From positions 1,054,001 to 1,118,000 of the forward strand of contig NZ_JABUOU010000001.1 of NCBI RefSeq assembly GCF_013344475.1: 64,000 nt of DNA. The letters run 5' to 3'. Position 1 is the stretch's first letter. Each line of letters opens with the position of its first letter. The position numbers and the translations under genes were made by a program. This DNA is from Martelella limonii (lineage in GTDB: Bacteria > Pseudomonadota > Alphaproteobacteria > Rhizobiales > Rhizobiaceae). Below are positions 1,623-64,000 of this stretch, in pieces. The notes below the pieces were generated by a model. It did no database searches. It was not told the origin of the DNA and saw only the letters and a program-made list of their open reading frames with translations.

Positions 1623-1666
1623 TGACGGTGTATCTGCGCCTCGGAAATGGCGGAGCTAGGGTGTGC

Positions 1667-40126: not shown

Positions 40127-40147
40127 GGATAGTCTCGCTGAAAAAAG

Positions 40148-41203: not shown

Positions 41204-41897
41204 TGGTGCTGTCCAACCGGTAGCCGACGCCGCGCACGGCGGTGAGCAGGCCATCCGCTCCGGCGGCGGAAAGCTTGCGGCGCAGATTGCTGACATGGCT
41301 GTCCACCGTGCGATCGAGCGCTTCGCTCTCCGGCATGCAGGCGTCAACCAGTTCCGCGCGCTCGAATGCCCTTCCCGGGTTAGCGGACATATGGGCGAGG
41401 ATGCGGAACTCGGTCCGCGTCAGGTCGAGCACCACCGCCCCGGCTGGGCTATCGACCGATGCGCGATAGGCCTGAGGATCGACAGTCAGCGGACCGACGC
41501 GCAGCACCTCGGCGGCCGTGCGCCCGATGGTCCGGCGCAGCACGGCCTTGGCGCGGGCCACGACCTCGAGCGGGTTGAACGGTTTGACGACATAATCGTC
41601 GGCGCCGATGCGCAACGCCTGGAGCTTGTCGAGATCCTCCGCAAGTGCTGTCACCATGATCACCGGCGTATCGCCGCGCCGGCGGATTGCTGCCAGCACC
41701 TCATAACCATCCTGTCCGGGCAGCTTGATGTCGAGCACCACCAGATCGGGACGCAGTCGCAGATGATGGGCAAGCCCCACAGTGCCATCGCCCGCGGTAA
41801 TGACCCGGAAGCCCTCGCGCGCCATATAGGTGCCGATGATCTCGGCGATCTCGGGTTCGTCTTCGATAATCAGGATCAGAGCATTGTTCATGGCCAT
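41196..41897 (-). CDS. OmpR/PhoB-family response regulator (BaeR-like)
   Basis: This 233-residue regulator has a receiver domain with IIEDEPEIAEII, the phospho-acceptor in LVVLDIKLPGQDGYEV and the conserved lysine in ADDYVVKPFNPLEV. The C-terminal winged helix reads LDRTVDSHVSNLRRKL. Starts at 41897 (MAMNN) or 41891 (MNN) are both possible. The gene lies 71 bases after the RND pump gene and overlaps the kinase gene, so the pump, regulator and kinase are probably cotranscribed. Confidence 0.93.
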   Translation of the reverse strand: MAMNNALILIIEDEPEIAEIIGTYMAREGFRVITAGDGTVGLAHHLRLRPDLVVLDIKLPGQDGYEVLAAIRRRGDTPVIMVTALAEDLDKLQALRIGADDYVVKPFNPLEVVARAKAVLRRTIGRTAAEVLRVGPLTVDPQAYRASVDSPAGAVVLDLTRTEFRILAHMSANPGRAFERAELVDACMPESEALDRTVDSHVSNLRRKLSAAGADGLLTAVRGVGYRLDSTNV

Positions 41898-41968
41898 GTC
41901 TTCGATCTTTGAAATGCCGCCCGGAGCGTTCCCCGTGCATCCATGCGGATGGCGGGGAACGCCCGAAC

Positions 41969-44900
41969 TCATTGTGCCGGCGCGGCGGGTTCCGGGTTGT
42001 TGGCAACATCCTTCTTCCGCGTTCCGTGCAGCGTCAGTCGACTGACTGTAACGTAGAGCACCGGCACGAAGAATACCGCAAGCGTGGTGGCCGACAGCAT
42101 GCCGCCGAACACGCCGGTTCCGATCGCGTTCTGGATCTCGGAGCCGGCGCCCTGCGCGAGCATCAAAGGCACGACGCCGAGGATGAAGGCCAGCGACGTC
42201 ATCACGATCGGCCGAAGCCGTAGCCGGGTTGCCTGCAGTACGGCCCGATGGAGGCTCATCCCGTCATGTCTCAGATGGCGGGCATATTCGACCAGAAGAA
42301 TGGCGTTCTTCGCCGAAAGCCCGATAATGGTGATCAGGCCAACCTTGAAGAAGACGTCATTGTCCATTCCGCGTGCCAGCACCGCCAGCACCGCGCCGAG
42401 CACGCCAAGCGGCACGACCAGCATCACCGAAAGCGGGATCGACCAGCTTTCATAAAGTGCGGCCAGCACGAGGAACACGATCAGCATCGAGGCGGCCAGC
42501 AGCATTGGCGTCTGCGTGGCGGATTGCCGTTCCTGCAGCGATTGCCCGGTCCATTCCACCGCGAAGCCGCGCGGCAATTGTTGCGCCAGACGCTCCATCT
42601 CGGTCATCGCCGCGCCGCTTGAAACACCCGGCGCCGCCGAGCCCGAAATGTTCGCGGCCGGATAGCCGTTATAGCGCTGGACCTGCAGCGGCGTCGTTTC
42701 CCAGACCGGCTCGACCACTTCCGATAGCGACACCATGCCGCCATCGATGTTGCGCACCTTGAGACGCAGGACATCCTCGACATGCATCCTTGCGGGCGCA
42801 TCGGCCTGCACGACCACCTGCTGAAGCTGCCCGTTATTGGGGAAGTCGTTGACATAGGTCGACCCGATCGCCGTCGAGATCATGTCGCTGATGGCCGAGA
42901 AGGACACCCCGAGCGCCAGCGCCTTCTGTCGATCGATCTTGAGCGCGATGCTCTGGCCATCGGGCAGCCCGTCCGCCATCACGCCGGTTACCAGCCTGCT
43001 TTCGGCGGCGAGCGCGATCAGCTGGTCCTCTGCCGCCTTCAGCGCCGCCGGCCCGGCATTGGCACGGTCCTCGAGCCTCAGCGCGAAGCCCGATGTGGTG
43101 CCGAGCGATTCGATTGCCGGCGGTTTCATGATCATCGCCATGCCTTCGGGAATGTCGGCCATCGCGGCTTCCGCCGCCGCAATCTCCTGGTCAACCGTGG
43201 TGTCGCGGTCGCCCCAGTCCTTCAGGCTGGTAAAGGCCTGCGCGGCATTGGTACCGGAGCCGGAAAAGCCGAAGCCGAGGATCACGAGACTTTCGACGAT
43301 ATCGGGCCGTGTCGCGGTATGGGCCTCATAGGCCTTGACAACCTCGCGCGTGCGCTCGGCGGTGGCGCCGGCCGGAAGCTCGAACATCGCCATAAAGCTG
43401 CCCTGGTCCTCTTCCGGCACGAACGATGTCGGTATCTTCGAATAACCGTAGCCGAGTGCCGCAATCAGCGCGACATAGATGACGAGCATCCGCCCGCCGC
43501 GCCGCAGGACCCAGCCGACAGAGCCGGTATAGCGCTTCGCCAGCGCACCGAATCCTCTGTTGAACCAGCCAAAGAAGCCGCCTTTGGCATGGGGCTTGAC
43601 AGGTTTCAGGATCGTGGCACACAGCGCCGGCGTCAGCGTCAGCGCAAGGAAGGCGGAGAACAGGATCGAGACCGCCATCGACAGAGTGAACTGGCGATAG
43701 ATCGCGCCGACGGACCCGGCTGCCATACCCATCGGGATGAAGACCGCCGCAAGAACCAGCGTGATGCCGACGATCGCGCCCGAAATCTCGCGCATCGCCT
43801 GACGGGTCGCGTCCCTTGGCGACAGGCCCTGCCGCGCCATGATGCGTTCGACATTCTCGACGACGACGATCGCGTCATCAACGATGATGCCGATGGCGAG
43901 CACCATGCCGAACATGGTCAGAACGTTGATAGAATAGCCGGCAAGCTGCATCACCGCGAAGGTGCCAAGAAGCGCGATCGGCGCAACAATGGTCGGGATC
44001 AGCGTGTAGCGGATGTTCTGCAGGAATAGCAGGATCACCAGAAAGACCAGCACCATCGCCTCGATCAGCGTATGGACGACCTTGGTGATCGAGACCTTCA
44101 CGAAGGGCGCGGTGTTGTAGGAGATCGCGATCTCCATATCCTGCGGCATTGATGGCCTCAGTTCCGCCAGGCGCTTTTCGATCGCCGCGGCGGTGCTGAC
44201 GGCGTTGGCGCCGGGCCGCATCTGGATCGCGGCGGCAGCGGCCGGTTTGCCATTGCTGCTGACGCTGAAGGCCAGCGTCTGGGCGCCGAGTTCAACCCGC
44301 GCCACATCCGAAAGCAGAAGCCGTCCGCCATCGGGTTTGGCCCTGAGCGGGATCGCCGCGAATGCCTCCGGCGTGGTCAACTGGCCATGGACGGTGAGCG
44401 GCGTCGAGACCTTCGTTCCCGGAACCGTCGGTTCGTCGCCGACCCGGCCGGGCGAAACCTGCGCGTTCTCGCGGGTGATCGCCTCGGTCACATCGGCCAT
44501 GGTCAGGTCGTAGGCCGCAAGCCTTTCCGGATCCACCCAGACGCGCATGGCCCGTGGCGAACCGAACTGCTGGACGCGCCCGACGCCCGGCAGACGCTTC
44601 AGCTCCTCGCTTATATTGCGGGTCATGTAATCGCCAAGGGCAAGTTCGTCGGTCTCACCGCTGACCGAGCGGAGCGTGAGCACCATCAGGAAGCCGGATT
44701 CGGCGGCCTCGACGCTGATGCCGCCGCGCCGGACTGCCTCGGGAAGCTGCGCTTCGGCATTCTTCAGCCGGTTTTGAACATCCACCTGCGCCATATCCGC
44801 ATTGGTTCCGGGCTTGAACGTCACCATGATGTTGGCGCCGCCGGTCGAGTCGGCGGTGGATTCGTAATAGAGCACGTTCTTGACGCTCGAGAGTTCCTTC

Positions 44901-45097
44901 TCGATGGGCCGAACGACGCTGTCATTGACCGTATCGACGCTTGCGCCGGTATAGGTCGCGAAGATGCTGATGCTTGGCGGCGCAATGTCCGGAAAGCGGG
45001 CTACCGGAAGCTTCGGAATGGCGACGAGCCCGGCGAGCGCAATGAAGATCGCAATCACCCAGGCAAAGACCGGGCGGTCGATAAAGAATTGTGGCAT
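41969..45097 (-). CDS. RND efflux pump inner-membrane protein (HAE1 family)
   Basis: This 1042-residue AcrB/MexB-like trimeric proton-driven pump begins MPQFFIDRPVFAWVIAIFIA and has the proton-relay aspartates in GIIVDDAIVVVENVER (TM4). Two large periplasmic loops and 12 helices are evident, at full family length. It follows the membrane-fusion protein gene by 12 bases. No outer-membrane TolC-like gene lies in the window, so it must use one encoded elsewhere. Substrates are probably drugs, dyes or bile-type compounds. Confidence 0.95.
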   Translation of the reverse strand: MPQFFIDRPVFAWVIAIFIALAGLVAIPKLPVARFPDIAPPSISIFATYTGASVDTVNDSVVRPIEKELSSVKNVLYYESTADSTGGANIMVTFKPGTNADMAQVDVQNRLKNAEAQLPEAVRRGGISVEAAESGFLMVLTLRSVSGETDELALGDYMTRNISEELKRLPGVGRVQQFGSPRAMRVWVDPERLAAYDLTMADVTEAITRENAQVSPGRVGDEPTVPGTKVSTPLTVHGQLTTPEAFAAIPLRAKPDGGRLLLSDVARVELGAQTLAFSVSSNGKPAAAAAIQMRPGANAVSTAAAIEKRLAELRPSMPQDMEIAISYNTAPFVKVSITKVVHTLIEAMVLVFLVILLFLQNIRYTLIPTIVAPIALLGTFAVMQLAGYSINVLTMFGMVLAIGIIVDDAIVVVENVERIMARQGLSPRDATRQAMREISGAIVGITLVLAAVFIPMGMAAGSVGAIYRQFTLSMAVSILFSAFLALTLTPALCATILKPVKPHAKGGFFGWFNRGFGALAKRYTGSVGWVLRRGGRMLVIYVALIAALGYGYSKIPTSFVPEEDQGSFMAMFELPAGATAERTREVVKAYEAHTATRPDIVESLVILGFGFSGSGTNAAQAFTSLKDWGDRDTTVDQEIAAAEAAMADIPEGMAMIMKPPAIESLGTTSGFALRLEDRANAGPAALKAAEDQLIALAAESRLVTGVMADGLPDGQSIALKIDRQKALALGVSFSAISDMISTAIGSTYVNDFPNNGQLQQVVVQADAPARMHVEDVLRLKVRNIDGGMVSLSEVVEPVWETTPLQVQRYNGYPAANISGSAAPGVSSGAAMTEMERLAQQLPRGFAVEWTGQSLQERQSATQTPMLLAASMLIVFLVLAALYESWSIPLSVMLVVPLGVLGAVLAVLARGMDNDVFFKVGLITIIGLSAKNAILLVEYARHLRHDGMSLHRAVLQATRLRLRPIVMTSLAFILGVVPLMLAQGAGSEIQNAIGTGVFGGMLSATTLAVFFVPVLYVTVSRLTLHGTRKKDVANNPEPAAPAQ

Positions 45098-45109
45098 GAT
45101 CTTTGACCC

Positions 45110-46264
45110 TTAATGCCTATCAGCTGCTGTTGCAGCATCCTGCTGTGCGCCCACCGGGCTCACGCGCAATCCGTCCTGAACGCGATCCTGTCCGCGAATG
45201 ACGATCATCTCGCCCGCTTTCAGCCCCGCGGTGACGACAACGCGTCCGTCGATGGCATCGCCGAGAACCACCTTTCGCCGCGCGGCCCGGCCATCGGCCG
45301 TCACGACCACGAGCTGCGCCTCGCCGGCGCCGTTGCGCACGACCGCTTCTTCCGGCACCAGCAGCGCATCGGGAAGGACGCCGCGCGGCAGGCGGACACG
45401 GACATACATGCCCGGCAGCAGATTGAGACCGGGGTTTTCCACCTCGATCCGGACTGCGGCATCCCCGGTTCCCGGATCGACCGTGACATCGGAAAGCGCC
45501 AGCCGGCCGGCACGGGGATGCGGCTTGCCGTCAGCGTCGAGGATCTCCGCCGACCCAAGCCCCTCCTTGGCGGCAGACTGCACGCCGTCAAGCTTCGTTG
45601 CCGGCAGGCGCAGGTCGACATAGACGCGGTCCAGCTCCTGCACCACCGCAAGCTCCGTCTGGCTGGAGGCAAGCGCGCCCTCGTCGGCGACCGTGCGGCC
45701 GACATAGCCCTTGATCGGCGAGCGTATCGTTGCGAAATCGAGGTCGAGCGCGCGCCGGTGCGCGACGGCCTTCGCTTCGGCAAGATTTGCCTCTGCTGCA
45801 GTCAGATCATTCTGCGCTTCCTCGTAATTCTTGCGGCTGGTCACGTTTTCCGCGATCAACGCCTTTGCCCGCGCCAGCCCCTGGCGGGCATGGGCCAGCG
45901 CTCCCTCGGCCCGCATCACCCCAGCCTTGGCCGTATCGAGATCGGCCTCAAGCAGCGCGGGATCGATTTCGAAGAGGACCTCGCCGGCCTCGACCTCGGT
46001 CCCGCCTTCGACAAGCCGCTTCTTGATGATGCCGGTGACCTGCGGCCGGATCTCGACCCGCCGATAGGCCGCCACGCGCCCGGGAAAGGCCTCGATCAGG
46101 ACCACGCGCTCCGGCTCAAGCGTCAGCGTGGTGACCTGCGCGGGAGCTTGCGTATTTGCAGACGGGTCTTCGATCTGCGAGACCGCCTCGTGGCGGAAAA
46201 TCAGAAAGATTGCGAGGGCGACGACGCCAACGATAGCGGTGATAAAAGAAAGGCGGTGCGACAT
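45110..46264 (-). CDS. RND efflux membrane-fusion protein
   Basis: This 384-residue periplasmic adaptor has an N-terminal membrane anchor (FITAIVGVVALAIFLIF), lipoyl halves (RRVEIRPQVTGIIKKRLVEG and IRSPIKGYVGRTVADEG) around an alpha hairpin, and a beta-barrel domain. The start at 46264 is preferred because the longer frame to 46429 reads without a domain. It is first in the pump-regulator operon. A dead IS3-type remnant lies about 225 bases upstream of the start. Confidence 0.93.
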   Translation of the reverse strand: MSHRLSFITAIVGVVALAIFLIFRHEAVSQIEDPSANTQAPAQVTTLTLEPERVVLIEAFPGRVAAYRRVEIRPQVTGIIKKRLVEGGTEVEAGEVLFEIDPALLEADLDTAKAGVMRAEGALAHARQGLARAKALIAENVTSRKNYEEAQNDLTAAEANLAEAKAVAHRRALDLDFATIRSPIKGYVGRTVADEGALASSQTELAVVQELDRVYVDLRLPATKLDGVQSAAKEGLGSAEILDADGKPHPRAGRLALSDVTVDPGTGDAAVRIEVENPGLNLLPGMYVRVRLPRGVLPDALLVPEEAVVRNGAGEAQLVVVTADGRAARRKVVLGDAIDGRVVVTAGLKAGEMIVIRGQDRVQDGLRVSPVGAQQDAATAADRH

Positions 46265-46489
46265 GAAAGGCGTCCAGGCTGGTGTACTTCGCCCGCACCT
46301 GACATGCGCCCTTCGATGTTCGGTTGAGAAATGATGGAGATTTCGTGGAGGCCGGCGGATACCCGCAATCCTCCGGAAGCCAGAGGAAAAACGCTGGCGC
46401 AAAATACAGGCGGGATATTCTCGCCCCAAAACCCAGGATCTGACGGCAATTCAGGCCGTTTATGATCGAGTATCGCCTCTCCATGGAGA

Positions 46490-47313
46490 TTGCACCTGAG
46501 GTCTCACGACCAGAAACTCTTGACGCGAGGCGTAAATAGCCCCGACGATGCATCCATTCGTGAAGCGATGAAGAAGGTGGCCTCCCAGCGCCGGCGCTGC
46601 GGCTACCGGCGGATCCATGTGATGCTGGATCGGCAAGGGATCGTCATGACCCTGAAGAAACTCCGTCGGCTATAACGGGAAGAGAAGCTGACCGTGCGCA
46701 CGCGCGGCGGTCGCAAGAGGGCATTGGGAACAAGACGACCATTGACCTTGCCTTTTCGCAAACCAACGAGCGCTGGAGCCTGGATTTCATCCGTGATGCC
46801 TTCACAGATGCCTGCACTTCCGGGTGCTGGCTGTCGTGGATGACTTCACCCGCGAACGCTTGCGCCTCATCGCGGACACATCGCTGTCTGGCGCTCGTCT
46901 CGCTCGGCAACTGGATGCGCTCATTGACAGGCGCGGCAAGCCAAGGACGATTGTCTCCGACAACGGCACGGAGATGACCAGTATGGCGATCCTCAAATGG
47001 TGCCAGGAGACCCATGTCGAATGGCACTCCATCGTTCCCGGCAAGCCGATGCAGAACAACTTTATCGAAAGCTTCAATGGCAGCTTCCGCGACGATTGCC
47101 TCAACGAGACGCTGTTCTCATCACTCGCCCAAGCGCGCGATGACATATCTCCTTTGAAGGAGGATTACAACGCAAACAGACCACACTCATCGCTGTGAAA
47201 TATCACGCCCAACGCGTTCGCAATGAGAATGGCACCGGAAAGACAGGCCGCTTGAGGCCAGATTGACAACCCAAGACTCTCCTAAAAATGGAGGTAAGTC
47301 GGGGCGCAGGTCA
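46490..47313 (+). pseudogene. IS3-family (IS407-like) transposase orfB remnant with right end
   Basis: The DDE transposase of an IS3 element is readable across three frames: HDQKLLTRGVNSPDDASIRE, RRRCGYRRIHVMLDRQGI, then [19 protein letters not shown] and [23 protein letters not shown] near 46674 replaces a Tyr codon, two frameshifts fall near 46740 and 46810, and a TGA at 47196 interrupts the tail. The right end finishes GGGGCGCAGGTCA (47301-47313), typical of the family. orfA and the left end are missing. It cannot move on its own. Confidence 0.85.
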
Positions 47314-47354
47314 ATCGCATTCGCTGCTATTTTGAGCTCACACGTCTTTCCCTC

Positions 47355-51724: not shown

Positions 51725-54571
51725 CTAAATCAACTGTCGTCTCGCCAGCGCGGTAAAGGCAGCATCGTTCTTTACGAGATCGTCGAATGTTCCGCTCTCA
51801 GCGATCCTGCCATTCTCGAAAACATATATACGGTCGGCGTTGCGTATCGTTGAAAGTCTGTGAGCGACAATAACGCGCGTTGCCCGCATGCGTTCGAGTG
51901 CTGCACTCACGTGAGCTTGTGTGACATTGTCGAGAGCGCTTGTCGCTTCATCGAACAACACGATGCGCGGCTTGCGAACAAGGGCGCGGGCTATCAGCAG
52001 ACGTTGCTTTTGGCCTCCGGACAAGGTTGAGCCACCCTCGCCAACCAATGTCTGCAATCCCATCGGCATTGCCGCAATGTCAGGCTCGAGGGCGGAATCG
52101 ATGACGGCCTGACGGATGTCGTCTTCCATAAAGACGCCATTGACCGTGATGTTATCGAGAATACTGCCGCCAAGAAGCTTTCCGTCTTGGAGAACGACAC
52201 CGATCTGCCGCCGCAGCGCGGTCAGATCAAGCTTTGCGATGTCATGTCCGTCATATGCAACGACACCCTTTTGCGGTGTCGCAAATCCCAGCAGCAGCCT
52301 GATCAAGGTCGATTTGCCACTGCCTGATGCGCCGACGACCGCTACAAACTCACCGGGATAGATATCGATACTGACATCATCCAGAACGGGCCGATCGCCC
52401 TCTTCATAAGAGAAGGTGGCATGCGCCAACGTGATGCGCCCGCTCAACGCACCCGGATCGAGTTTCGAGCGCGAAACCTCCGGCTCCGCAGTTCTGATAG
52501 GTCCGGTGCGTTCATAGAGCGGTTTCAGCGACGCCAGCGTGACGAGCGCGCCTGCAAAACCGGCAATACCACCATAAAACTGCCCGAATGCTGCACCGAA
52601 CGCGACAAATGTGCCGGTTGACACATCTTCCACGTAGAAGGCGAAGAAAGCGAGCGCAACGATTTGGAAGATCGTGAGCACGCCGCTTGTCAGCAACCCC
52701 TCACTGTATGAAAGTACGTTGGAACGTAACTGAAAATGCATGCTGCGGGCAAACCGCTCTATCCAGTCTGAAAATGCCAACCTTTCCGCCCCGCCGGCCT
52801 TCAGTGTGGAAATCCCGGCTATGAACTGGAATGTCCGCGAGGAGAGTTTTCCGCTCAGTTCGTACTGCTCGCGTTGGTAAAGAAGCTGCAGATAAGCAAA
52901 AATACAGCTGATCAGCGTAACGAATACCACGAAACAAACAGCAATCCCTGCGAGAACGGGCTGGTAGTAGATCATGATTGCCAGGCTGATCGCCGAAAAG
53001 AGGCCGCTGACGAGCGCTGAAAGCGTTGATCCACTCAATGCTTGACTGAGCGCATTGATACCGGACGCACGACTCGCGAGATCGCCCACTTCGTATTGCT
53101 GGAAAAACGATGCTGGCAGGCGCAACAAGCGATCCCAGACAGCGTTTTGCATCAAGGCATCGACACGCCCGCTCATGCGCAGCTGCGTCAACGCTCTTGC
53201 CATGCCAAATCCAAGCGACGCAAAGGCAGCGGTGACCAGAACGATGGTCACCTGGATCAACTGGTTGTATTCGGCCTTCGGAATAATGGTATCGAAGATG
53301 TGGGCAGACACGAATGGCGTCAACAGCGCCAGCAGCGCAGTACAGGCGGATGCAATCATGACTGTGCCAAATGCACCGGCATTAGTGCGAAACACAAAAC
53401 CGAGAAGAGCCCGCGGCGTCACCTCGCCGTCCGGCAGCGGTCGGTAAAATACATAAGCCTCCGGCAGAAGCGTTGCCGCAAGCTGCTTGTTGACTTTACG
53501 CTCCCTGCCATCGGCATCGATATGGCGATAGCCGTTGCGGACAGGAATGAGGCATGCCGGCTCTCCGGCCTCGGTGAAGCTGAGAAAGGCGCCATGGTCG
53601 CCGCGCCACCACTCTTCAGGCAACCGGGCACGCCGCATGCGCACATGATTGAACCGGGCCAATCCCGCAACCGCTTCACCGCGTTCCGCTGGAGGTCCGG
53701 CCAGTTTTGCTTTCAGGGTGATACCATCCACCGAAGCAACGCGCGCTGCACAGCGAAACAACGCATCGGCCTCCAGCGGTCCCGCGGAAGAATTCGCTTT
53801 GCCATCGAGGAGTGCGGCAAGCTTTCCATCTGCTGCATTCAGCCGAATCTCCGCCGCCAGATCGCGGCGTGAAACATTGTCCTGCATGTTCCGGCGTTCA
53901 ATTTCGAGTGTCGTTGCAATGCCTTCAAGCGCCATCCGCTTAGCCTGCGCACGGCCCTGATGCTGTCGCCCGGTCTCCGCCAGCGCCGCGCTGTCATGCA
54001 CCTGCACAAGGGTTGGGGATGTTGCTTGCGCCCAGAACGCATCGGTCAGCGGAACAAGGCCAGGACCGACATTACGCGCGTCGCCGGAGGCAAACACTTC
54101 GTCTGTTTCGAGCCAGAGCAACGCTCCGCCGGAACAAACGGCCGTGCCAGGCGCAAGCTCGACAGGCTGACCGGCGCGCAACGGGACAATTCCGCGGGGT
54201 GCAATGGCGGACGGGCAGCACGCCAGCAAGCGGCAGAGCCAACTGTCTATCTGCGTCGCATGCGGAGAATCCTCTGCGGCCGTGATACTCGTTTCTGGCG
54301 TTGGGATCACAAGAATGTCGGGGACATTGCCAGTCATCTCAACATCGGCAAAGCCCGAAAATACGTCACCTTCGGAAAGACGCATGAGATGGCGCAGAGG
54401 TCCGTAAATCTGGAAGTCAGGATCAACGGCAAACACGTCGACCCTCCCCTTTTCGACCTGAAACACACCGGCCACTGCATTCAGCGGTATGGAACGCGGC
54501 ATTCGAGCAGCGTCCTGGGCATCACGAAGTGGCAGGGGTAGATCTGATTGCCGGCTATCAGGATCGGTCAT
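51725..54571 (-). CDS. NHLM-type bacteriocin export ABC protein without peptidase (ABC2)
   Basis: This 948-residue protein has a long N-terminal soluble region (about residues 1-390), which includes a cyclic-nucleotide-binding-like part (GVFQVEKGRVDVFAV), then a six-helix ABC membrane domain and an ATPase (Walker A GASGSGKST, signature LSGGQKQR, Walker B IVLFDEATSALD). This layout fits the second ABC protein of NHLM microcin systems. It follows the C39-ABC gene by 12 bases. It probably forms a heteromeric exporter with that protein. The long N-terminal region is a hallmark of this family. Confidence 0.88.
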   Translation of the reverse strand: MTDPDSRQSDLPLPLRDAQDAARMPRSIPLNAVAGVFQVEKGRVDVFAVDPDFQIYGPLRHLMRLSEGDVFSGFADVEMTGNVPDILVIPTPETSITAAEDSPHATQIDSWLCRLLACCPSAIAPRGIVPLRAGQPVELAPGTAVCSGGALLWLETDEVFASGDARNVGPGLVPLTDAFWAQATSPTLVQVHDSAALAETGRQHQGRAQAKRMALEGIATTLEIERRNMQDNVSRRDLAAEIRLNAADGKLAALLDGKANSSAGPLEADALFRCAARVASVDGITLKAKLAGPPAERGEAVAGLARFNHVRMRRARLPEEWWRGDHGAFLSFTEAGEPACLIPVRNGYRHIDADGRERKVNKQLAATLLPEAYVFYRPLPDGEVTPRALLGFVFRTNAGAFGTVMIASACTALLALLTPFVSAHIFDTIIPKAEYNQLIQVTIVLVTAAFASLGFGMARALTQLRMSGRVDALMQNAVWDRLLRLPASFFQQYEVGDLASRASGINALSQALSGSTLSALVSGLFSAISLAIMIYYQPVLAGIAVCFVVFVTLISCIFAYLQLLYQREQYELSGKLSSRTFQFIAGISTLKAGGAERLAFSDWIERFARSMHFQLRSNVLSYSEGLLTSGVLTIFQIVALAFFAFYVEDVSTGTFVAFGAAFGQFYGGIAGFAGALVTLASLKPLYERTGPIRTAEPEVSRSKLDPGALSGRITLAHATFSYEEGDRPVLDDVSIDIYPGEFVAVVGASGSGKSTLIRLLLGFATPQKGVVAYDGHDIAKLDLTALRRQIGVVLQDGKLLGGSILDNITVNGVFMEDDIRQAVIDSALEPDIAAMPMGLQTLVGEGGSTLSGGQKQRLLIARALVRKPRIVLFDEATSALDNVTQAHVSAALERMRATRVIVAHRLSTIRNADRIYVFENGRIAESGTFDDLVKNDAAFTALARRQLI

Positions 54572-54583
54572 GAATCTGGTTTC

Positions 54584-56776
54584 TCAGTGAGAGGCCACGA
54601 GCCGTGCGTAGTGCCCGCCGTGGTCCTGTATCAATGTCTCGTGTGTCCCGCGTTGCACGATCCTCCCCTGATCGAGCACCATGATCTCGTCGCTGTCACG
54701 TATTGTAGAGAGCCTGTGCGCGATGATAATACAGCTGCAGCCACGTCGCCTCAGGTTCAAATCGACGGTCTTCTCGGTTACGGGATCCAGTGCAGATGTG
54801 GCTTCATCCATAATCAATACCGCCGGATTCCGCGCGAGAGCACGTGCTATCTCGAGGCGTTGGCGTTCGCCTCCGCTGAGATTACGGCCTGCCTCTGAGA
54901 CGACAGCGTTGATGCCTTTCTCACGGACGAGAGCTGCCTGATCGAGGCAGGCGTCGGCAACGGCGCTGTTGATCGCCTGGTCGGATATCGAGCTATCCCA
55001 GAGGGTGATGTTGTCACGCAATGTGCCGCTGAAGACATTGATCTCCTGGCTAACCACGCCAAGTCCTGATGTCAGCGACAACCGGTCCATTTTCTGGACG
55101 GGCCTTTCGTCGAAAAGAACCTCGCCTTGCCACGGCTGGTAGAGCCCGGCAACCAGCTTGCCGATGGTGGATTTTCCCGAGCCGCTTGTTCCAACAAGGG
55201 CAACACGCATGCCCGGTTGGAGCAAAAGGGAAAAGTCTTCGAGCAGCGGCTTTTCGAGCCGGCTATACCCGAAGGTGATGGCGCGAAGTTCCACCTTGCC
55301 AATGAGCGGCAACGTTTCCCTTGAAGCGGCCGTACCCCCTGGAGAGGTCACCTCCGGTCTGGTGGCATCATAATTGATGAGGTCCTCGACACGGCTGAGA
55401 TCGACCTGCGTTGTCTGCAGCGAGGAGCCAAGGCTTACAAGACCTGCGATGGGTCCATTGAAACTGCCGACCAGAACCTGAAACGCGATAAGGTCTCCGA
55501 CGGTCATCCTGCCGTCCAGAACCAACAAGGCGCCGACGCTGAGAATAGCGACATTGCCGAGGGCGCCAAGGCTGCCGGGGAGAAGGCTGAGAATGCGGTT
55601 CTGGCGCCCGATCGTCTGGGACAGAGACACATACTGTGCCTGCACCCCTCCCCAGCGTGCAAACAGGTCATCTTCGAGCCCGGCAGCCTTGACCGTTTCG
55701 ATTGCCGAGAGACCACTCATGATCGCCGAGCTTTGCTCGGCGCCATTTTTTGCGAGGAGATGGCGTGCATTCTCAAACCTTATCCATACAATGCGCGCCA
55801 TGACGAGGTTGAAAGCGGCAAGAAAAACGACGATCGAAGCCAGAAAAGGGCTGTAGGAAAACATCATCGCGCCGTAGACGATGATGGAAATGATCCCCAC
55901 GATACTGAACGCGAGGGGGCCGGACACCATGGATGCAACACGATTGGCAGATGCCAGTCTGTTGGCAATGTCACCGGCATAGCGTTGGCTGAAAAAGTCG
56001 GCCGGCAGATGCAGGAGCCGCCAGAACACGTTTCGCGTCATGCCGATGCTGACCTTTGCGGAAAAGCGCATCAGGAAATGTTGCTGCAGCCAGCTCAGCA
56101 GCATACTAAGGCCGCCCGCCACAAGATAAATGGCAAGCAGCGGCCTCACCCAGTCTTGCTGCCCTCCAATCAGAAAGTCATCGACGTAGATCTTGCTCAG
56201 CGCCGGGATCACGATGCCGGGTATCACAAGCAGCAAGGTCACCAGCAGGATGAAGGCAAATGGCCCCCCTGTGCCGCGTGCGAACCTGCGAAGTTGTCGC
56301 AAAACCGAAGGTTTTTCGCCGCCGCGTGTGAAATCCGGGCCCGGCTGGATGGTGATCGCGATGCCTGTGAAATTGCGGTCCATCTCGGCCCAGCTGATAT
56401 GCTGCCGCCCCTGAGCCGGATCATTTATCTGGGCGCCCTTGCGATCGATCTTCTCCAGAACCACGAAGTGATTGAAGCGCCAAAAGATGATCGCAGGCAG
56501 CCGCAGATCACGGAGCTTGCCCAGTCCAGCCTTGAACCCTTTTGCTTCGCAGCCGAAACGCCTGGCCGCCTCCATCACGTTCCAGGCATTTGAGCCATTT
56601 CGCGAAACACCGCATTCAACACGCAGCCGCTCCAGCGGAACCCAGCGGCCATGATAGGCAAGCACCATCGCCAGACAAGCCGCGCCACATTCGACAGCCT
56701 CCATCTGCAGGATGGTCGGCGTGTTGCGGCTGCGAAAAATGCCCCTCGGCCTCCACGGCGGAAAACGTCTTTTCAT
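54584..56776 (-). CDS. C39 peptidase-ABC bacteriocin exporter (NHLM ABC1 type)
   Basis: This 730-residue exporter would cut the double-glycine leader and move the core across the inner membrane. The C39 domain has Gln24 and Cys30 in QMEAVECGAACLAMVL, His103 in FNHFVVLEK and Asp119 in INDPAQGR, so it looks active. A membrane domain and ATPase follow (Walker A GTSGSGKST, signature LSGGERQR, Walker B VLIMDEATSALD). The ATG at 56776 with CGGAG ahead is chosen over one at 56791. It begins just after the adaptor stop codon. Confidence 0.92.
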   Translation of the reverse strand: MKRRFPPWRPRGIFRSRNTPTILQMEAVECGAACLAMVLAYHGRWVPLERLRVECGVSRNGSNAWNVMEAARRFGCEAKGFKAGLGKLRDLRLPAIIFWRFNHFVVLEKIDRKGAQINDPAQGRQHISWAEMDRNFTGIAITIQPGPDFTRGGEKPSVLRQLRRFARGTGGPFAFILLVTLLLVIPGIVIPALSKIYVDDFLIGGQQDWVRPLLAIYLVAGGLSMLLSWLQQHFLMRFSAKVSIGMTRNVFWRLLHLPADFFSQRYAGDIANRLASANRVASMVSGPLAFSIVGIISIIVYGAMMFSYSPFLASIVVFLAAFNLVMARIVWIRFENARHLLAKNGAEQSSAIMSGLSAIETVKAAGLEDDLFARWGGVQAQYVSLSQTIGRQNRILSLLPGSLGALGNVAILSVGALLVLDGRMTVGDLIAFQVLVGSFNGPIAGLVSLGSSLQTTQVDLSRVEDLINYDATRPEVTSPGGTAASRETLPLIGKVELRAITFGYSRLEKPLLEDFSLLLQPGMRVALVGTSGSGKSTIGKLVAGLYQPWQGEVLFDERPVQKMDRLSLTSGLGVVSQEINVFSGTLRDNITLWDSSISDQAINSAVADACLDQAALVREKGINAVVSEAGRNLSGGERQRLEIARALARNPAVLIMDEATSALDPVTEKTVDLNLRRRGCSCIIIAHRLSTIRDSDEIMVLDQGRIVQRGTHETLIQDHGGHYARLVASH

Positions 56777-56792
56777 GTCGGCGCTCCGCATG

Positions 56793-58070
56793 TCATCTGT
56801 TGATACCGAGCAGCTTCCGGATCGCCGGGATGACCAGGACGATCGGAGGGACCTGCTCGACCATGACTTCGGCATCAGCCAAAGTGCCGGTGCTGACTTT
56901 CAGGTCGGGGCCATTGCCAGAGCTCCACTTCAGCCCTGAAGGGGTCGACGTATCTTTTTCCAGCCGCACGCCGAGAGATATCGGAGGGCGTTGACCTGCG
57001 AGCGTTCTCGCCAGATCCGGATTCCCAAGCTGGCGTTCTATCGCAGCATTACTTTGGGGATCTTCGCTGACCCACACAACCTTTCCGAGGATCGTGCCAA
57101 AGCGGGCAGGCTCCACGGTGGATGGCGATACACTCACGTCCATCCCCTTGACGATTTTCTTTCCATGAAGCGGATCGGCGAAAAACACACCTTCAATCTC
57201 TTCATCCACAGGTCGGATAGTGAGAATCGTCTCGCCTGGCTGAACAAAAGAACCGACGGCAGCAGCGATTTCAACGACACGCCCGTCCATGTCCGAGATG
57301 ACTTTCCCGCCGCTTTCGAGGGTCTCCTCGATATCGGAGAGATTCTCCTCGGCATTCAATATCCGGTCATCCATCGCCTGGAGAGCCGTGTCCTTCTGGT
57401 TTTCAATCTGAAGCCGCCTGGAAACCAGCTGCTCCTTGTTGAACCTCGCTTCATCAAGGTTGCCGGATGCTTGAATAAGATCGTCACGAGCCTGCTCCAG
57501 CCTCAACGGGGTGACAAGGCCTTCCTCGCTTGCCTTTTCAAAGCCCGTAAGAATTTTTTCCCGGCTTTTCACCCGCCGCTCATTCCAATCGATTTGCCGC
57601 TGCAAATCCCTTTCGTTCTGATCGATTTCCGCAAGCTGTTGGCGGAGCAACGTGTTCCAATAGGTGTTCAAGAGCTCCTGCTCGCTTCTCAGCGAGCGCA
57701 AGGTGCGTTCCGCATCAAGCTTGTCATGCGCAATCGAGGCGATCTCGATGGACGCCAGGCGATCCCCTTCTTTAACTGCCCCGCCGAGCCGAACCGGAAG
57801 CGATTTCACGACCCCGGAATGGGTAACTGTGAAGTCTCTGGCTGCGCCGAACGCAGGGCCCAAAACTCCCGGACCCCGAACAAGAGTTGTTATGGTTCCG
57901 AAAACGCTCCAATAGATCGCACCCGCAAAAACAAGCGTGATCGCGATTGCAACCACCCAACCGCTCGGACCAACCACGCGCATCACGCTCTCAGTACTCT
58001 CAGAGCTTTGAAGTTGCTTCAGCGCAGCCTCGCGGTAGAGACGGCTTGATGTGTCATTGGTCTGGGACAT
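56793..58070 (-). CDS. HlyD-like secretion adaptor of NHLM system
   Basis: This 425-residue periplasmic adaptor has one N-terminal transmembrane helix (about residues 37-57, VVAIAITLVFAGAIYWSVF). A lipoyl half reads FTVTHSGVVKSLPVRLGGAV. A long coiled-coil hairpin (about 115-245) and a C-terminal barrel region follow. It links the inner-membrane exporter to an outer-membrane channel that is not in this window. The stop lies next to the peptidase-ABC start. Two overlapping small open frames precede it. Confidence 0.88.
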   Translation of the reverse strand: MSQTNDTSSRLYREAALKQLQSSESTESVMRVVGPSGWVVAIAITLVFAGAIYWSVFGTITTLVRGPGVLGPAFGAARDFTVTHSGVVKSLPVRLGGAVKEGDRLASIEIASIAHDKLDAERTLRSLRSEQELLNTYWNTLLRQQLAEIDQNERDLQRQIDWNERRVKSREKILTGFEKASEEGLVTPLRLEQARDDLIQASGNLDEARFNKEQLVSRRLQIENQKDTALQAMDDRILNAEENLSDIEETLESGGKVISDMDGRVVEIAAAVGSFVQPGETILTIRPVDEEIEGVFFADPLHGKKIVKGMDVSVSPSTVEPARFGTILGKVVWVSEDPQSNAAIERQLGNPDLARTLAGQRPPISLGVRLEKDTSTPSGLKWSSGNGPDLKVSTGTLADAEVMVEQVPPIVLVIPAIRKLLGINR

Positions 58071-58403: not shown

Positions 58404-58922
58404 CTATTCAACTTCCGCTAGATCATTGAGTCGTTTGAACGCCGCTGAAAAGCCCTGAAGCGATGCCGCAAACGGAACTTTCTTGTCGCTGTTGGCGACC
58501 GCTCCGGTCACGGTCAGGCTCGAGCCGGATTTCATTCCGTCGACGATTTCCCGATCCAGGTTGATCTCAACCAGACACCCCCGCGGCAAGCAGGTCGAAA
58601 ACTCCAGCTGCTGCTCCGCGGCCTTTTCATCAAGCGAAAGAAAAAGCGGCTCTGCCACCGCGAGGCCGAAGGGCATCACGATGAGACCGAGCAGGCCGCC
58701 ATCCTCGCCCGCTATCAACTCCACGGAGAATACCGTATCACCGGAAGCGCTATCGACCTGCCTCTGCGACATGACGCATTGATCACCTTTGTCGTCGCTG
58801 ATGCAGTTGACCTGCCAGTCTTGATAGGTTTCGTGCAACTCGTTCGCGCCGCCAGGCAAAGCCGCAGCGGCTGGCAAAAATGATGTTGCGACCAAAACAC
58901 CCGAAGCAAAAAGTCTCAGCAC
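58404..58922 (-). CDS. IalB-family secreted protein
   Basis: This 172-residue protein has a signal peptide (MLRLFASGVLVATSFLPAAAA) and a mature domain matching invasion-associated locus B proteins: TYQDWQVNCISDDKGDQC, VMSQRQVDSASGDTVFSVEL and STCLPRGCLVEINLD. It is probably exported to the periplasm or envelope. The start is a GTG with AAAGGA about nine bases ahead. It lies between the autotransporter gene and the secretion operon on the same strand. Family function is poorly defined outside Bartonella. Confidence 0.88.
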   Translation of the reverse strand: MLRLFASGVLVATSFLPAAAALPGGANELHETYQDWQVNCISDDKGDQCVMSQRQVDSASGDTVFSVELIAGEDGGLLGLIVMPFGLAVAEPLFLSLDEKAAEQQLEFSTCLPRGCLVEINLDREIVDGMKSGSSLTVTGAVANSDKKVPFAASLQGFSAAFKRLNDLAEVE

Positions 58923-58994: not shown

Positions 58995-61900
58995 TCAGAA
59001 ATTGAACTGCATGCGGGCGTAGCCGCCGTAGGAAGATGTGTTCTCCGAGATTGAGCCTCCGGCCTTGAGAGACAGGGATAGTCGTTCGCTCAGATCCATG
59101 TTCAACCCGGCAGCCAGCTCGAACTGGTTCCTGTCGCTGCTCGATGTGATCGCAACATCGTCATCGAACACACTGCCCCCGATCAGTCGCGACGCGAGAT
59201 CGAAGTTTGAGCCGCTCAGCGTGGACGACACGCCCGCCCGCACGAACCCGACAGCCGCATGATCCGCCCAGTTGAATGCACGCCCAAGTTCCAGCGAAGA
59301 GCTTAAAACCAGCGAATTATGTGCGACCGGATCGACTTCCCAGTTCAGCGGTCCGGATCCGTCTTCCTGGAATCCGTTCTGGAACAGACGCGTGCCGGCA
59401 AGCGCGATGGATGGTTTTGCGTAATAGTCATCGAACGGCAAGACGGCATAGGCGCGCAGTTCCGCCGTCACGAAACCTCCGGCCAGATCGGCGCCCGCCC
59501 CGTAGGACTGATTGCCGATCGCGTATCTGCGGGCCTGATCATAATTGTAGTAGCCGCCGCCAAAGGTCGTTGACAGTGTAAAGACGCCGACCTCGCGCTT
59601 GAACGCAGCGCCGCCGCTCCAAAGATAGCCGTCCTGGTCGAAATTGCTGCCATCGACCCGAACATGCTGAACACGGCCGCCGGCCTCGATGAAGGTGTCG
59701 CGGGCGATTTCCGTCTGCACAGCCCCTTCAAAACCGGCGGTATACTCATCGAACCCGAGTGTGGAATCCGTCTCGTCTTGATGAAACACATCACCGACAA
59801 CCTGTCCCCAGACGCATTCACGCTGATGATAGAAGGTTTCCCCCGCCGCGGGATCAAGAATAGGACAGCTCTGCAGCAGGCTGTGGACCGCCTGAGAGGC
59901 TTCGACCTGGCGCGACGCACTGATCAGGCTTTCGTCCAGGGTGTGATGTCCATAGATCTCCTCAACGGCCTCTCCGGTTGGTGCGTTCAGGATGTCGGTC
60001 GCCAGAAGGCCGAGCGCATCTGTCTTTTCTTGATCGACATCGCCCTTGCGGACGCTTCCCATGACGGAGTTGAAATGGCCGGCAAATTCAAGCGCATTCG
60101 CATCCAGCGACTGGCCACTCCCGGCGCCGGTATAATCGACAACAAACATACTCGTCAGTTGCGTCGGATCGCCTGTGTCTTGAAGCGCATAGGCGACCGT
60201 CGCGCTGTTGATCATCTGCACCTCTCGTGCAGAAAGTGCAGCACCATCTTCTGTCTTCAGGAATGTGAATTCGCCGCTGTCGCCATTGACGAAGTTGGTC
60301 CGGCCAGTCCACCAGCCACGTGCCCCGCCCGAAAGGTTGACCGTGTCCCTGGCCTTGCCAAGATCAAGCGTGATCACGTCATTGGTCAGCGTGGCGGCAG
60401 GAGACGTCTGGGCCAGATCGACCTGAATGACGCCGGTTGCCGTTTGCGTGAAGGCGCCCGTGGTGATCCTTGCCTTGTCAACTACGCCAAAGCCACCTGC
60501 AGACATCGCGCCGGCATTGGTAATCGCCGACCGGTCGCTGCCACCAAGATCAACCTTATTGCCCAGCGCATATCGGCCACCCTCGGAATTGACGAGCTCG
60601 GCTGGATAATCGCCGCCCCGAACATCAATGCCGCCAGCCAGATTGCCAAGGTTGGATATCCTGAGCCCGGCCTTTCCATCGGAACCAATGACGATCGAAG
60701 ACGATCCGGCACTTCGCAAGGTCCCGCTATTGCTCACACGGTTGGAGATCACTTCGACGCCATCTTCCTGGGCCCGCGAACGCCCACCCATGATCGCAAT
60801 CGTCTCATGGGCTTCCGGGTTCGTCGTCGCAACAACACCGCCCTCGGCGATCGTGATCGTGACAACGCCCTCCTTGCTGTCCATGGAATCATTCACGGAA
60901 AGGGACGAGGCCTGCGCAAGAATGGCGCGAGACTTCTCACCGGCAGCGATCACCTGCCCCGAGACAGTGATATAGACGCCGCCCGAATGGCTCGACTTGT
61001 CACCGCCGCTGGCGCTCTGCGCAAATATGCCATGCGCGCCCTTGCCCAGAACCAGGATGCTGCCTGCAATATCAGCTGTAATCAGACCGCTATCGCCCTT
61101 CAGGCCGGCACTGCCGATCTTGAGACCCAGCGACGAAGCCGCCGCTCCGCCGCCGCCGCCAGTCGACTGCAACCAAAGACCGTGGGCGGAATCGCCAAAT
61201 GTGGCAATCGAGCTATCCTTCGACAGCGTCACCGTGATCGGCCCGCCATCGCCGCCCTTCGCGCCATCAGGATGGGGCGAAACGCCGAAGACGCCAGACC
61301 CAAACGCTTCAACCAGCGAATCAAGTACATCCTGCAGAGAATCCTGCGGACTGCCCGCGGCCCCGCCGCCGCCGCCGACAGACTGAGCGGAGATCCCGAC
61401 CGCACCCTTGCCAAGCGTCATAACAGACCCGGTATTGGCGACACTGATCGCGCCCCCCTTGCCGCCGCCGCCGCTGCTGCCGGTGACTGTTGCTGCCAGA
61501 TAGGCCCATTCTGTGCCCTCGCCGCCAACGCCGCCTCCACCGCCAATGGTTTGAGAATAGATCGCCGTCGCATAGTCACCGAGTGTGAAAACGGAACCAG
61601 CATTATCGACAGTCAAATCACCGCCATCACCGCCAGATCCAGCACCACCGCCAATGTCAACAACCAGCGCCAGACTGAAAGGCTTCTTAACTTCAGTATT
61701 GTCTATATACCCTTTAATTCTTTTATTAGCATCCTCATACTTCTTTTTTATGTCATTGCGAATGTTAATAATTTTATCTCTAGCTGCCATAGCATTCTTT
61801 TCTAGAGATCTATCAGATACATTATATTTATTAAATATACTATAATATTCCTTGTAGAGAGAATCGAAACTTTTTTGAAGTTCCTTTATTTCTGGCGTGT

Positions 61901-64000
61901 CTTCGCGAGCTAATAATTTATTTTTTTCTATAGTGGCTTGATATTCCTCTATAGTACGTTCGCTTTCCTCATTCGCAAGTTTCGAGACCTGCCAATCAGA
62001 AGCCAATTGCGCGATCTGCCCGGCATTTGCAGATGTGGCATTGCCGCCAATACCGCCACCACCGCCAACAGATTGCGCATAAATGCCGTAAGATGTCTCC
62101 CCGAAGGTCGAAATGGAAGCAGCGTTCGAAACCGAGACGCTGCCACCAGTGCCGCCACCCTTGCCACCGCCGCCGAGATTGAAGGAGGCGGCCAGCTTGA
62201 CAGGTCTGTGCCGGAATAGTTCCAGGTTCTGGATCCTGGTGAACACAAAAGAACCGGCATAGACGTTCCCGCCATCACCGCCGCCGCCGCCCACGGACTG
62301 CGCAAATATCCCGTAAGAACCGGCATCAAAGGTGGAAATCCGGCCGCGATTTTCGACAGTTACGCTGCCGCCATGCGCGCCAGTGCCTCCGGAGCCGCCG
62401 ATATTGACATTCGCGGTTAAGTCAAAGGAATTGAATCTTGGCTCCGTTTTGCCAAAGCCCAATATGCCGACAATACTGTTCCCACCCTTGCCGCCGTTGC
62501 CGCCGATCGACTGGGCGTAAATGCCCGACGACGTGGCGCCGATCGTTCCCAGATCGGCTTCATTGGAAACAGAAACGGCGCCACCTTGTGAACCGCCGCC
62601 GCCGCCGCCGCCAATCGTGGTATCGACCGTGAAATTTCTGCCGGCCGTGCCGAAGAGGGACGCCTCGGTGGCCGTCCCACCAACGCCGCCATTACCGCCC
62701 GTGGATTGCGCAAGAATGGCGTCGGATTCGGCTCCGGCCGTCGTGATCGCTCCCTTGTTATCGATCGTCACTTTCCCGGCACTGGATCCGGCGCCGCCGG
62801 ATCCACCAAGCGTGGTGCTATACGCATCGTCTCCCTCCGATCCGATAAGTTGGCTGGCTGAAGACAGTGTGAAGCCTGCAGAACCACCATTCCCGCCGAT
62901 GGATTGCGCCGAAATCCCGTGTGAGCGAAGTCCCGCCGTGGTAATCACACTTCCCGTCTCATTGGTGACACGCACATCATCGCTGACGCTCGCATTGCCG
63001 CCATCGCCGCCAATCGTGGTGGGGACCGCAAAGCTACCCTGGCCAACCTCAACTGCTGCGCTGATGGTGACGCCCGAAGCGCCGCCATTCCCGCCAAGAC
63101 TAAGGACCTCGATCCCCGGTGCATGCGCGCCCGCGGTGGTCAGGGCACCGGAATTCGTGACGGAAACCTTGCCGCTCCTGCCGCCATTGCCGCCGTTGCC
63201 GCCAATCGTCGTGGTGATCGCTGCATTGCTCTCTGCAACCTGAACTGTTGCGCTGATGGTGACGCCCGAAGCGCCGCCATTCCCGCCAAGACTATGTGCC
63301 GCGATGCCTGGTGCATGTCCGCCAGCGGTGGTCACGACACCAGAATTCGTGACGGCGACCTTGCCGCCACTGCCGCCATTGCCACCCTTGCCGCCAACCG
63401 TCGTGGTGATTGCGGCGGACATGCTATCGGGACCGGGAACACCCACGGTTCCATCGACGACAAGTCCGGATGCTCCGCCACTACCGCCAACGCTCTGCGC
63501 CAGGAGCCCTGTCGCATGCAGTCCCGATGTCCCGATATTCCCGCTATTGTCAACGCTTACGCTACTTGCCTTGCCGCCATCTCCCCCATCACCGCCATGG
63601 AGGATATCGACCGACGCGATGGAGACGGTGCCACCCGTGAGCGTGCTGGAAACACCGCCGCCACCGCCAAGGCTTTGCGCCGATATGCCGCGACCGAGAT
63701 CGCCATAGGTGGTCAGCATACCGCGGTTCGTCACATCGACCGCGCCGGAACTGCCGCCATTGCCGCCAGCGCTTGCCAGAGACCATTGCCCAAGCTTGAT
63801 CGCGACCTCGTCATTGACCAAAGTCCCCGAGGCACCGCCGCCGCCGCCAAGGCTCTGGGCCAGAATCGCACTCGAAGACTTTCCGCTCGCGGCTGTCTGC
63901 AGCTTGCCATCGGCATCAAAAACAGCCGCCGTCCCGGTCGTGATCTTGCCGTCATTCGTGACATTGACCGCGCCAGCCCTGCCGCCATTGCCGCCGCTCT
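58995..64000 (-). CDS. Giant glycine-repeat autotransporter (N terminus outside window)
   Basis: At least 1,667 residues are encoded; the frame stays open to the window edge, so the start and signal are missing. The passenger repeats the pattern I-x-AQS-(L/V/I)-GG-(N/G)-GG every 40-65 residues, as in alphaproteobacterial autotransporters with beta-helix passengers. The last 280 or so residues form the outer-membrane barrel and end YARMQFNF, with the expected terminal Phe. A lysine-rich non-repeat insert interrupts it (see separate entry). It is probably a surface adhesin. The IalB-like gene follows on the same strand. Confidence 0.93.
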   Translation of the reverse strand, partial: SGGNGGRAGAVNVTNDGKITTGTAAVFDADGKLQTAASGKSSSAILAQSLGGGGGASGTLVNDEVAIKLGQWSLASAGGNGGSSGAVDVTNRGMLTTYGDLGRGISAQSLGGGGGVSSTLTGGTVSIASVDILHGGDGGDGGKASSVSVDNSGNIGTSGLHATGLLAQSVGGSGGASGLVVDGTVGVPGPDSMSAAITTTVGGKGGNGGSGGKVAVTNSGVVTTAGGHAPGIAAHSLGGNGGASGVTISATVQVAESNAAITTTIGGNGGNGGRSGKVSVTNSGALTTAGAHAPGIEVLSLGGNGGASGVTISAAVEVGQGSFAVPTTIGGDGGNASVSDDVRVTNETGSVITTAGLRSHGISAQSIGGNGGSAGFTLSSASQLIGSEGDDAYSTTLGGSGGAGSSAGKVTIDNKGAITTAGAESDAILAQSTGGNGGVGGTATEASLFGTAGRNFTVDTTIGGGGGGGSQGGAVSVSNEADLGTIGATSSGIYAQSIGGNGGKGGNSIVGILGFGKTEPRFNSFDLTANVNIGGSGGTGAHGGSVTVENRGRISTFDAGSYGIFAQSVGGGGGDGGNVYAGSFVFTRIQNLELFRHRPVKLAASFNLGGGGKGGGTGGSVSVSNAASISTFGETSYGIYAQSVGGGGGIGGNATSANAGQIAQLASDWQVSKLANEESERTIEEYQATIEKNKLLAREDTPEIKELQKSFDSLYKEYYSIFNKYNVSDRSLEKNAMAARDKIINIRNDIKKKYEDANKRIKGYIDNTEVKKPFSLALVVDIGGGAGSGGDGGDLTVDNAGSVFTLGDYATAIYSQTIGGGGGVGGEGTEWAYLAATVTGSSGGGGKGGAISVANTGSVMTLGKGAVGISAQSVGGGGGAAGSPQDSLQDVLDSLVEAFGSGVFGVSPHPDGAKGGDGGPITVTLSKDSSIATFGDSAHGLWLQSTGGGGGAAASSLGLKIGSAGLKGDSGLITADIAGSILVLGKGAHGIFAQSASGGDKSSHSGGVYITVSGQVIAAGEKSRAILAQASSLSVNDSMDSKEGVVTITIAEGGVVATTNPEAHETIAIMGGRSRAQEDGVEVISNRVSNSGTLRSAGSSSIVIGSDGKAGLRISNLGNLAGGIDVRGGDYPAELVNSEGGRYALGNKVDLGGSDRSAITNAGAMSAGGFGVVDKARITTGAFTQTATGVIQVDLAQTSPAATLTNDVITLDLGKARDTVNLSGGARGWWTGRTNFVNGDSGEFTFLKTEDGAALSAREVQMINSATVAYALQDTGDPTQLTSMFVVDYTGAGSGQSLDANALEFAGHFNSVMGSVRKGDVDQEKTDALGLLATDILNAPTGEAVEEIYGHHTLDESLISASRQVEASQAVHSLLQSCPILDPAAGETFYHQRECVWGQVVGDVFHQDETDSTLGFDEYTAGFEGAVQTEIARDTFIEAGGRVQHVRVDGSNFDQDGYLWSGGAAFKREVGVFTLSTTFGGGYYNYDQARRYAIGNQSYGAGADLAGGFVTAELRAYAVLPFDDYYAKPSIALAGTRLFQNGFQEDGSGPLNWEVDPVAHNSLVLSSSLELGRAFNWADHAAVGFVRAGVSSTLSGSNFDLASRLIGGSVFDDDVAITSSSDRNQFELAAGLNMDLSERLSLSLKAGGSISENTSSYGGYARMQFNF
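61690..62000 (-). other. Low-GC lysine-rich coiled-coil insert in the autotransporter
   Basis: Within the Gly-rich passenger a stretch of about 100 residues is Lys/Glu-rich and without glycine repeats (ERTIEEYQATIEKNKLLARE, SLEKNAMAARDKIINIRNDI). It reads as coiled coil. By count, bases 61741-61980 are 73/240 G+C (about 30 percent), far below the flanks. The frame is uninterrupted. It looks like an acquired domain spliced into the repeat array. Confidence 0.75.
63057..63294 (-). repeat. Tandem 192-bp near-identical repeat units in the passenger
   Basis: A block of more than 40 bases beginning TGCGCTGATGGTGACGCCCG (plus strand) occurs at about 63057 and again at about 63249, exactly 192 bases (64 codons) apart, in frame. 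The units encode GNGGASGVTISA. Recent duplication is likely, and unequal crossing over could change repeat number. Confidence 0.7.

Follow-up and report, generated by a model that had tools for sequence, protein, structure and literature searches.

The window, by which we mean the whole stretch of 64,000 nucleotides of the Martelella limonii genome that was analysed, ends within a giant autotransporter gene on the minus strand, and one linker of the encoded passenger holds an AT-rich insert. The features of this locus are as follows.

58995-64000, minus strand: C-terminal 1,667 codons of a type Va-like autotransporter gene, with an open reading frame that runs past the window end
59064-59813, minus strand: autotransporter beta-barrel (PF03797, E 8.6e-23, 81.8 bits, cut-off 26)
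61533-61640, minus strand: intact repeat core after the insert, matched by the core profile, with A/T-shifted third codon positions
61641-62054, minus strand: inter-core linker of 138 residues that holds the insert, with both ends resembling those of ordinary linkers in the family
61680-61985, minus strand: insert proper, 102 codons, rich in Lys and Glu and lacking Cys (GC 0.307, GC3 0.255)
61684-61956, no strand assigned: best-fit AT-rich segment (GC 0.28 versus 0.61 on either side)
61692-61811, minus strand: predicted helix, model residues 76-115 (pLDDT block means 88-96, falling at the last residues)
61824-61895, minus strand: predicted helix, model residues 48-71 (block means 91-96)
61905-61952, minus strand: predicted helix, model residues 29-44 (block means 65-91)
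61962-62024, minus strand: low-confidence predicted helix (block means 52-65), the greater part of which falls outside the best-fit AT-rich segment
62055-62159, minus strand: intact repeat core before the insert, matched by the core profile, with coordinates counted from a string match

The autotransporter gene comprises 2,544 codons in the assembly; its start lies outside the window, and it extends to G000:C1:1120629. Its GC content is 0.60, and a hydrophobic stretch is present at the translated N terminus. The C-terminal beta-barrel that characterizes type Va autotransporters was recovered as PF03797 (E 8.6e-23) when the barrel part was searched alone, whereas the 1,667-residue stretch searched as a whole matched no Pfam or NCBIfam family. 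Downstream of the gene, an IalB-family protein (window 58404-58922, minus strand; PF06776, E 6.1e-27) lies between the autotransporter and a set of NHLP/NHLM bacteriocin-type export genes (window 51725-58070, minus strand), all of which scored above the cut-off, namely ABC2 (TIGR03797), ABC1 with a peptidase (TIGR03796), and an HlyD-like adaptor (TIGR03794). At least three further giant autotransporters of the same kind occur in the genome (G000:C1:1039792-1042902, C5:2867-3769, and C38:176418-177824), one of which ends approximately 11 kb ahead of the window. Elsewhere in the window, the RND efflux and regulator region at 40086-46350 shows 92% identity to the Martelella mediterranea plasmid NZ_CP020331.1, and the sequence at 46554-47314 has a 79.5% match to an Ensifer plasmid region annotated as an IS3 family transposase.

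The passenger is a chain of cores of approximately 36 residues, roughly GxGGxGGxVxVxNxGxIxTxGxxSxGIxAQSxGGGG, which are connected by linkers. A core profile, started from the window's own protein and refined iteratively with a 5-bit threshold on the same 41 glycine-repeat ORFs from Martelella and its relatives in which it was then used, found 948 cores and 907 linkers; these ORFs comprise the window's gene and those obtained from 39 of the 40 loci selected among the matches, with locus L038 yielding none. The linkers have a median length of 25 residues, a 95th percentile of 60, a 99th percentile of 103 and a maximum of 163, although some of the very long ones contain missed cores and the core register near the barrel may err by one or two. 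The original prediction described a domain that interrupts the GGxGG repeats. We found instead that the insert lies wholly within a 138-residue linker, in a position where length is variable, and that both flanking cores match the core profile. The insert enlarges a linker, and no repeat is broken. If the cores are taken as the units of a stalk, the insert would occupy the position of a side domain, in a loop between intact units.

The insertion site itself is ordinary, as linkers vary much among the related proteins. Long linkers, taken as those that have at least 45 residues and three GG pairs or fewer, number 59 in the C-terminal 65% of the proteins and occur in 32 of the 41 ORFs. Their contents differ and include runs of acidic residues, short helix-favouring stretches of basic character, and a helix-favouring linker of 138 residues in the congener G012. 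Counted from the barrel, linkers of at least 45 residues are concentrated at two positions, seven cores from the end, where 25 of 36 ORFs have one, and ten cores from the end, where 11 of 36 do. The insert itself sits five cores from the end, a position at which most linkers are short (median 24) and 3 of 36 ORFs, the window's own included, have one of at least 45 residues; the insert is thus located away from the commonest hot spot. The linker that holds it differs from the others in composition. The remaining long linkers have GC contents of 0.54-0.75, and the window's linker has the lowest GC content among the 648 linkers of at least 20 residues in the 41 ORFs, none of which is similar to it in sequence.

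The low GC content of approximately 30% that was originally reported for 61690-62000 agrees with both the fitted AT-rich segment and the insert proper (0.28 and 0.31, respectively). Fitted edges within two log units of the best fall at 61671-61689 and 61944-62008, and the edges of the insert, which were set by eye on the protein sequence, are close to these. The description of approximately 100 lysine-rich residues was also accurate; among the 102 residues, Lys is the commonest (16), followed by Glu (13), Ile (10), and Asn (9), with a single Gly and no Cys. The GC contents at the first, second, and third codon positions are 0.40, 0.26, and 0.25 in the insert compared with 0.63, 0.51, and 0.66 in one flank and 0.61, 0.61, and 0.65 in the other. 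When the amino acids of the insert were encoded with codons drawn from the rest of the gene, the expected GC3 was 0.593 ± 0.046 and all 5,000 draws gave 0.40 or more, compared with 0.255 in the insert (z −7.4). Codons from 14 other long ORFs, which were taken from the mechanical ORF list of the window, gave an expectation of 0.674 ± 0.045 (z −9.3).

The reading frame is maintained, as had been stated; the minus-strand frame from 58995 to beyond 64000 is open across the AT-rich segment, and only one of 20,000 base shuffles of the insert reached such an open frame, which indicates that the insert is coding and has been maintained as a frame. The other five frames were rejected as the origin of the segment because all of them contain stops (3, 4, and 10 on the plus strand; 7 and 18 on the minus strand). 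To place the segment in its genome, we used a sample of 38 stretches plus the window, approximately 818 kb with two fully masked contigs dropped and a GC content of 61%. Eight tracts of 270 bp with a GC content of at most 0.36 occur in this sample, including that of the insert, and two of them are lower in GC than the insert's (0.237 and 0.259). Three of the other tracts are covered by open frames with a GC content of at most 0.51 in every 150-bp piece, and the remaining four have no covering open frame. Therefore, the insert is the sole AT-rich islet within an otherwise normal ORF in the sample. AT-rich open frames elsewhere in the genome include L114 1061-1741 (whole-frame GC 0.37) and L135 9122-9743 (GC 0.40).

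The insert was modelled alone, without an alignment, using AlphaFold2 (127 residues, five models). The best model has a mean pLDDT of 78.2, and the other four range from 53 to 64, so that the confidence comes from one model of five. In the best model, block means of 88-96 were obtained for model residues 31-110 (window 61707-61946), and this confident helical part falls inside the AT-rich segment. When the insert was folded within its repeats, again without an alignment, the mean pLDDT was 41, yet the insert was still helical; the repeat flanks remained below 50. The hydrophobic periodicity of the whole insert peaks at 3.6 residues, a value reached by a fraction of 0.0025 of shuffles. By thirds, the corresponding fractions are 0.378, 0.027, and 0.009, and the first 32 residues thus lack helical periodicity. 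The candidate side domain is predicted to have a helical fold. The coiled coil that was originally proposed is an imprecise description; the model has several helices separated by turns, the periodicity of the whole insert is 3.6 residues, and the first third shows none. A Foldseek search with the model returned best E values of 0.75 against PDB and 0.25 against viral models, with none at or below 0.001. VIA-align rows reached Z 8.9, with FadA, Snf7, ING4, and others tied, a range that is common for helical bundles. Nothing was drawn from the resemblance to a FadA-like adhesin hairpin (Z 8.9, rmsd 7.9 over 109 residues), which is tied with unrelated helical proteins.

Searched on its own, the segment had no relative in the collections covered. 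The other 40 glycine-repeat ORFs contain no insert-like stretch, and the finding that was to count against the original prediction, conservation of the segment with the same base composition in all homologous passengers, is not what we observed. In three overlapping draws of genomes, the insert matched itself. This was the sole match among 101 relatives; it was accompanied by two weak rows (E 0.021 and 0.046) among 397 genomes of the order and by nine (E 0.026-0.087) among 398 genomes of the phylum. No match was obtained in the 12 other Martelella genomes beyond one row at E 0.55 (G001). The weak protein matches are partial and have 25-42% identity, which is what helical stretches rich in Lys and Glu would be expected to give; they were not accepted as relatives. 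Plasmids and phages gave no match with tblastn, and genome contigs and viral contigs gave no confirmed relative of the insert under an exact 8-residue prefilter, which detects close relatives only. The C-terminal 534 residues also had no relative in the genome contigs under the same exact-peptide search, which is likewise confined to close relatives. Best E values were 0.029 in Pfam (five families, all under the cut-off), 0.0055 in NCBIfam (far under the cut-off), and 0.53 against PDB sequences. A PHROGs match to phrog_26988, a family of unknown function, passed the default threshold (E 3.2e-4 over 37 residues) and was attributed to helical composition.

The C terminus of the host protein is related to proteins in 18 of the 101 relatives at E 1e-10, itself counted, including 12 of the 13 Martelella, and in 8 of 394 genomes of the family at 1e-20, itself counted. 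The closest passenger, that of G214, shows 27-29% identity in the C-terminal part, and no close ortholog was found in these draws; its linker at the corresponding place has 46 residues and is unlike the insert in sequence. With no ortholog carrying an empty site and G214 at 27-29% identity, gain and loss are indistinguishable. A search for repeat pairs of at least eight bases revealed no long terminal or direct repeats at the edges of the insert, a search to which shorter target duplications are undetectable. All of the repeat pairs at the edges are short, and the longest inverted pair has 15 nt at 80%, a figure given without a shuffled control.

We consider it reasonably probable that the insert is a helical side domain on the passenger stalk, derived from AT-rich DNA that was recently captured at an insertion-tolerant site. 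Among the readings of the codon data, an origin outside the lineage is the most likely, and the AT-rich codons point to a recent arrival from an AT-rich source. On balance, the original observation holds, its placement is corrected, and its interpretation receives partial support. For the horizontal acquisition that it suggested, the evidence is compositional, namely a codon and base composition unlike that of the host gene, and no donor appeared among the genomes, plasmids, phages, and viral contigs searched. The stalk would consist of the 36-residue cores joined by linkers of variable length that can tolerate very different sequences, probably because, to judge from known autotransporters, the linkers protrude and lie outside the packed stalk. 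Into one of these linkers, a coding segment of approximately 300 bp, AT-rich and probably foreign to the lineage, would have been inserted in frame. The insert would then be exported along with the passenger, with which its lack of Cys is compatible, and would fold outside the cell into a small helical domain that projects from the stalk and may act by binding a partner or as a spacer for the stalk. The foreign origin and surface display of the segment, the way in which its helices pack, and its function in contact or adhesion are what we infer.

The main rival explanation is that the linker and the following core of a related, AT-richer autotransporter were recombined into this gene, so that the insert was already a passenger linker on arrival. 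The A/T shift at third codon positions extends past the insert into the following core, where the 30-codon window 1656-1685 has a z of −3.49 (residue numbers, here and for L037 below, are counted from one codon upstream of the ATG). No other window that avoids the insert is as extreme (the next in rank elsewhere in the gene has −3.02), and the shift is compatible both with the insertion of a domain and with the replacement of a longer stretch. It is a hint that repeat sequence may have arrived together with the insert, which would favour an exchange with an AT-rich passenger. The native-looking linker ends agree with such an exchange, for which the repeats could have supplied the homology. However, no AT-rich passenger is present among the 41 ORFs, in which the lowest whole-ORF GC is 0.56, and the segment has no relative in the collections searched. 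We regard this exchange as unlikely, though it is the strongest of the alternatives. The core at 61533-61640 has an ordinary-looking protein sequence despite its shifted third positions.

Less likely still is local growth, in which an ordinary linker lengthened and diverged at its present site and its AT-richness owes nothing to transfer. The codons for Lys, Asn, Ile, and Tyr are AT-rich, and a long orphan linker in the G012 passenger L037 has a host-like GC content, so that linkers may either grow in place or ameliorate after they have been acquired. Nevertheless, the amino acids of the insert alone would predict a GC of 0.43 and a GC3 of 0.59, compared with the 0.31 and 0.255 observed. With GC3 so far below the expectation for the same amino acids, the lysine content alone does not explain the AT-richness. 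Drift in a genome of 61% GC is also not expected to yield a GC3 of 0.25, and the maintained open frame argues for selection as a protein.

Palindromic elements of the Rickettsia type occur as many dispersed palindromic copies. The insert is in frame, helical, foreign-looking, and placed at a tolerant site, as would be expected of a selfish mobile coding element of this type or of the PARCEL type; PARCEL repeats, according to the available part of their description (PMC2996958), are amphipathic coding sequences believed to spread from one genome to another and to enter surface proteins, with tandem 25-residue repeats and dyad symmetry. Against this, the insert has one full match in its own genome, itself, and the five other matches measure just 15-23 bp; neither tandem 25-residue repeats, nor dyad symmetry, nor a long palindrome was found in it, and the other genomes in the draw of 101 relatives have no match. 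A mobile element is thus very improbable. An assembly or sequencing artefact, to which a contig end approximately 1.6 kb from the gene start might point, is hardly credible with a frame that is open through 102 codons and both joins in a genome listed at 100% completeness and 0.54% contamination.

The preferred reading, a captured side domain, has a counterpart in the SPATE proteins. Domains d2-d4 of Hbp, Pet, and EspP are, in the available accounts, likewise extra domains in loops of the passenger stalk, and d3 forms an alpha-helix according to the accessible portion of PMC9289746. The SPATE stalk is a beta-helix and that of Martelella is a glycine-repeat chain; the likeness is one of description rather than sequence comparison. 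Moreover, the insert differs from the SPATE side domains in its foreign base composition and in having no counterpart in the relatives compared. In the part of PMC3521207 available to us, secretion of Hbp continued after its side domains had been removed, although for some of them the amount fell by up to about half, and also after they had been exchanged for a protein that is believed to adopt a helical hairpin. The insert would be a natural counterpart to such engineered display on Hbp. If foreign domains do enter passenger linkers, the contacts of a surface stalk could be changed in one step with secretion undisturbed, and a fresh capture that retains the donor base composition would permit dating of the event and a search for the donor. 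Within a limited library, the literature search returned no paper on glycine-rich-repeat autotransporter passengers in Rhizobiales or on Martelella autotransporters, and the available part of PMC3419190 does not mention an insert of this kind.

The giant glycine-repeat autotransporters of Martelella and its relatives share the same cores and linker positions, and several have long charged or helix-favouring linkers. The closest parallel to the window's linker is residues 966-1103 of L037, which also has 138 residues, favours helix (as scored with Chou-Fasman values), and lacks Cys. This linker is an orphan too, matching itself and one marginal row (E 0.008) in the 101 genomes. In contrast to the insert, it has a host-like composition (GC 0.54, GC3 0.72) and lies seven cores from the end, and the two have no sequence similarity. 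It is possible, though rather doubtful, that such linkers are standing sockets for foreign coding DNA, into which lineage-specific helical or acidic domains are plugged, ameliorated, and replaced; the insert would then be fresh and the L037 linker older. A second long helix-favouring linker is present in L037 at residues 1262-1358 (97 residues). Strongly acidic linkers with runs of Asp occur seven cores from the end in passengers of several congeners, namely L035, L045, L046, L051, L053, and L055 (near residues 1219-1345).
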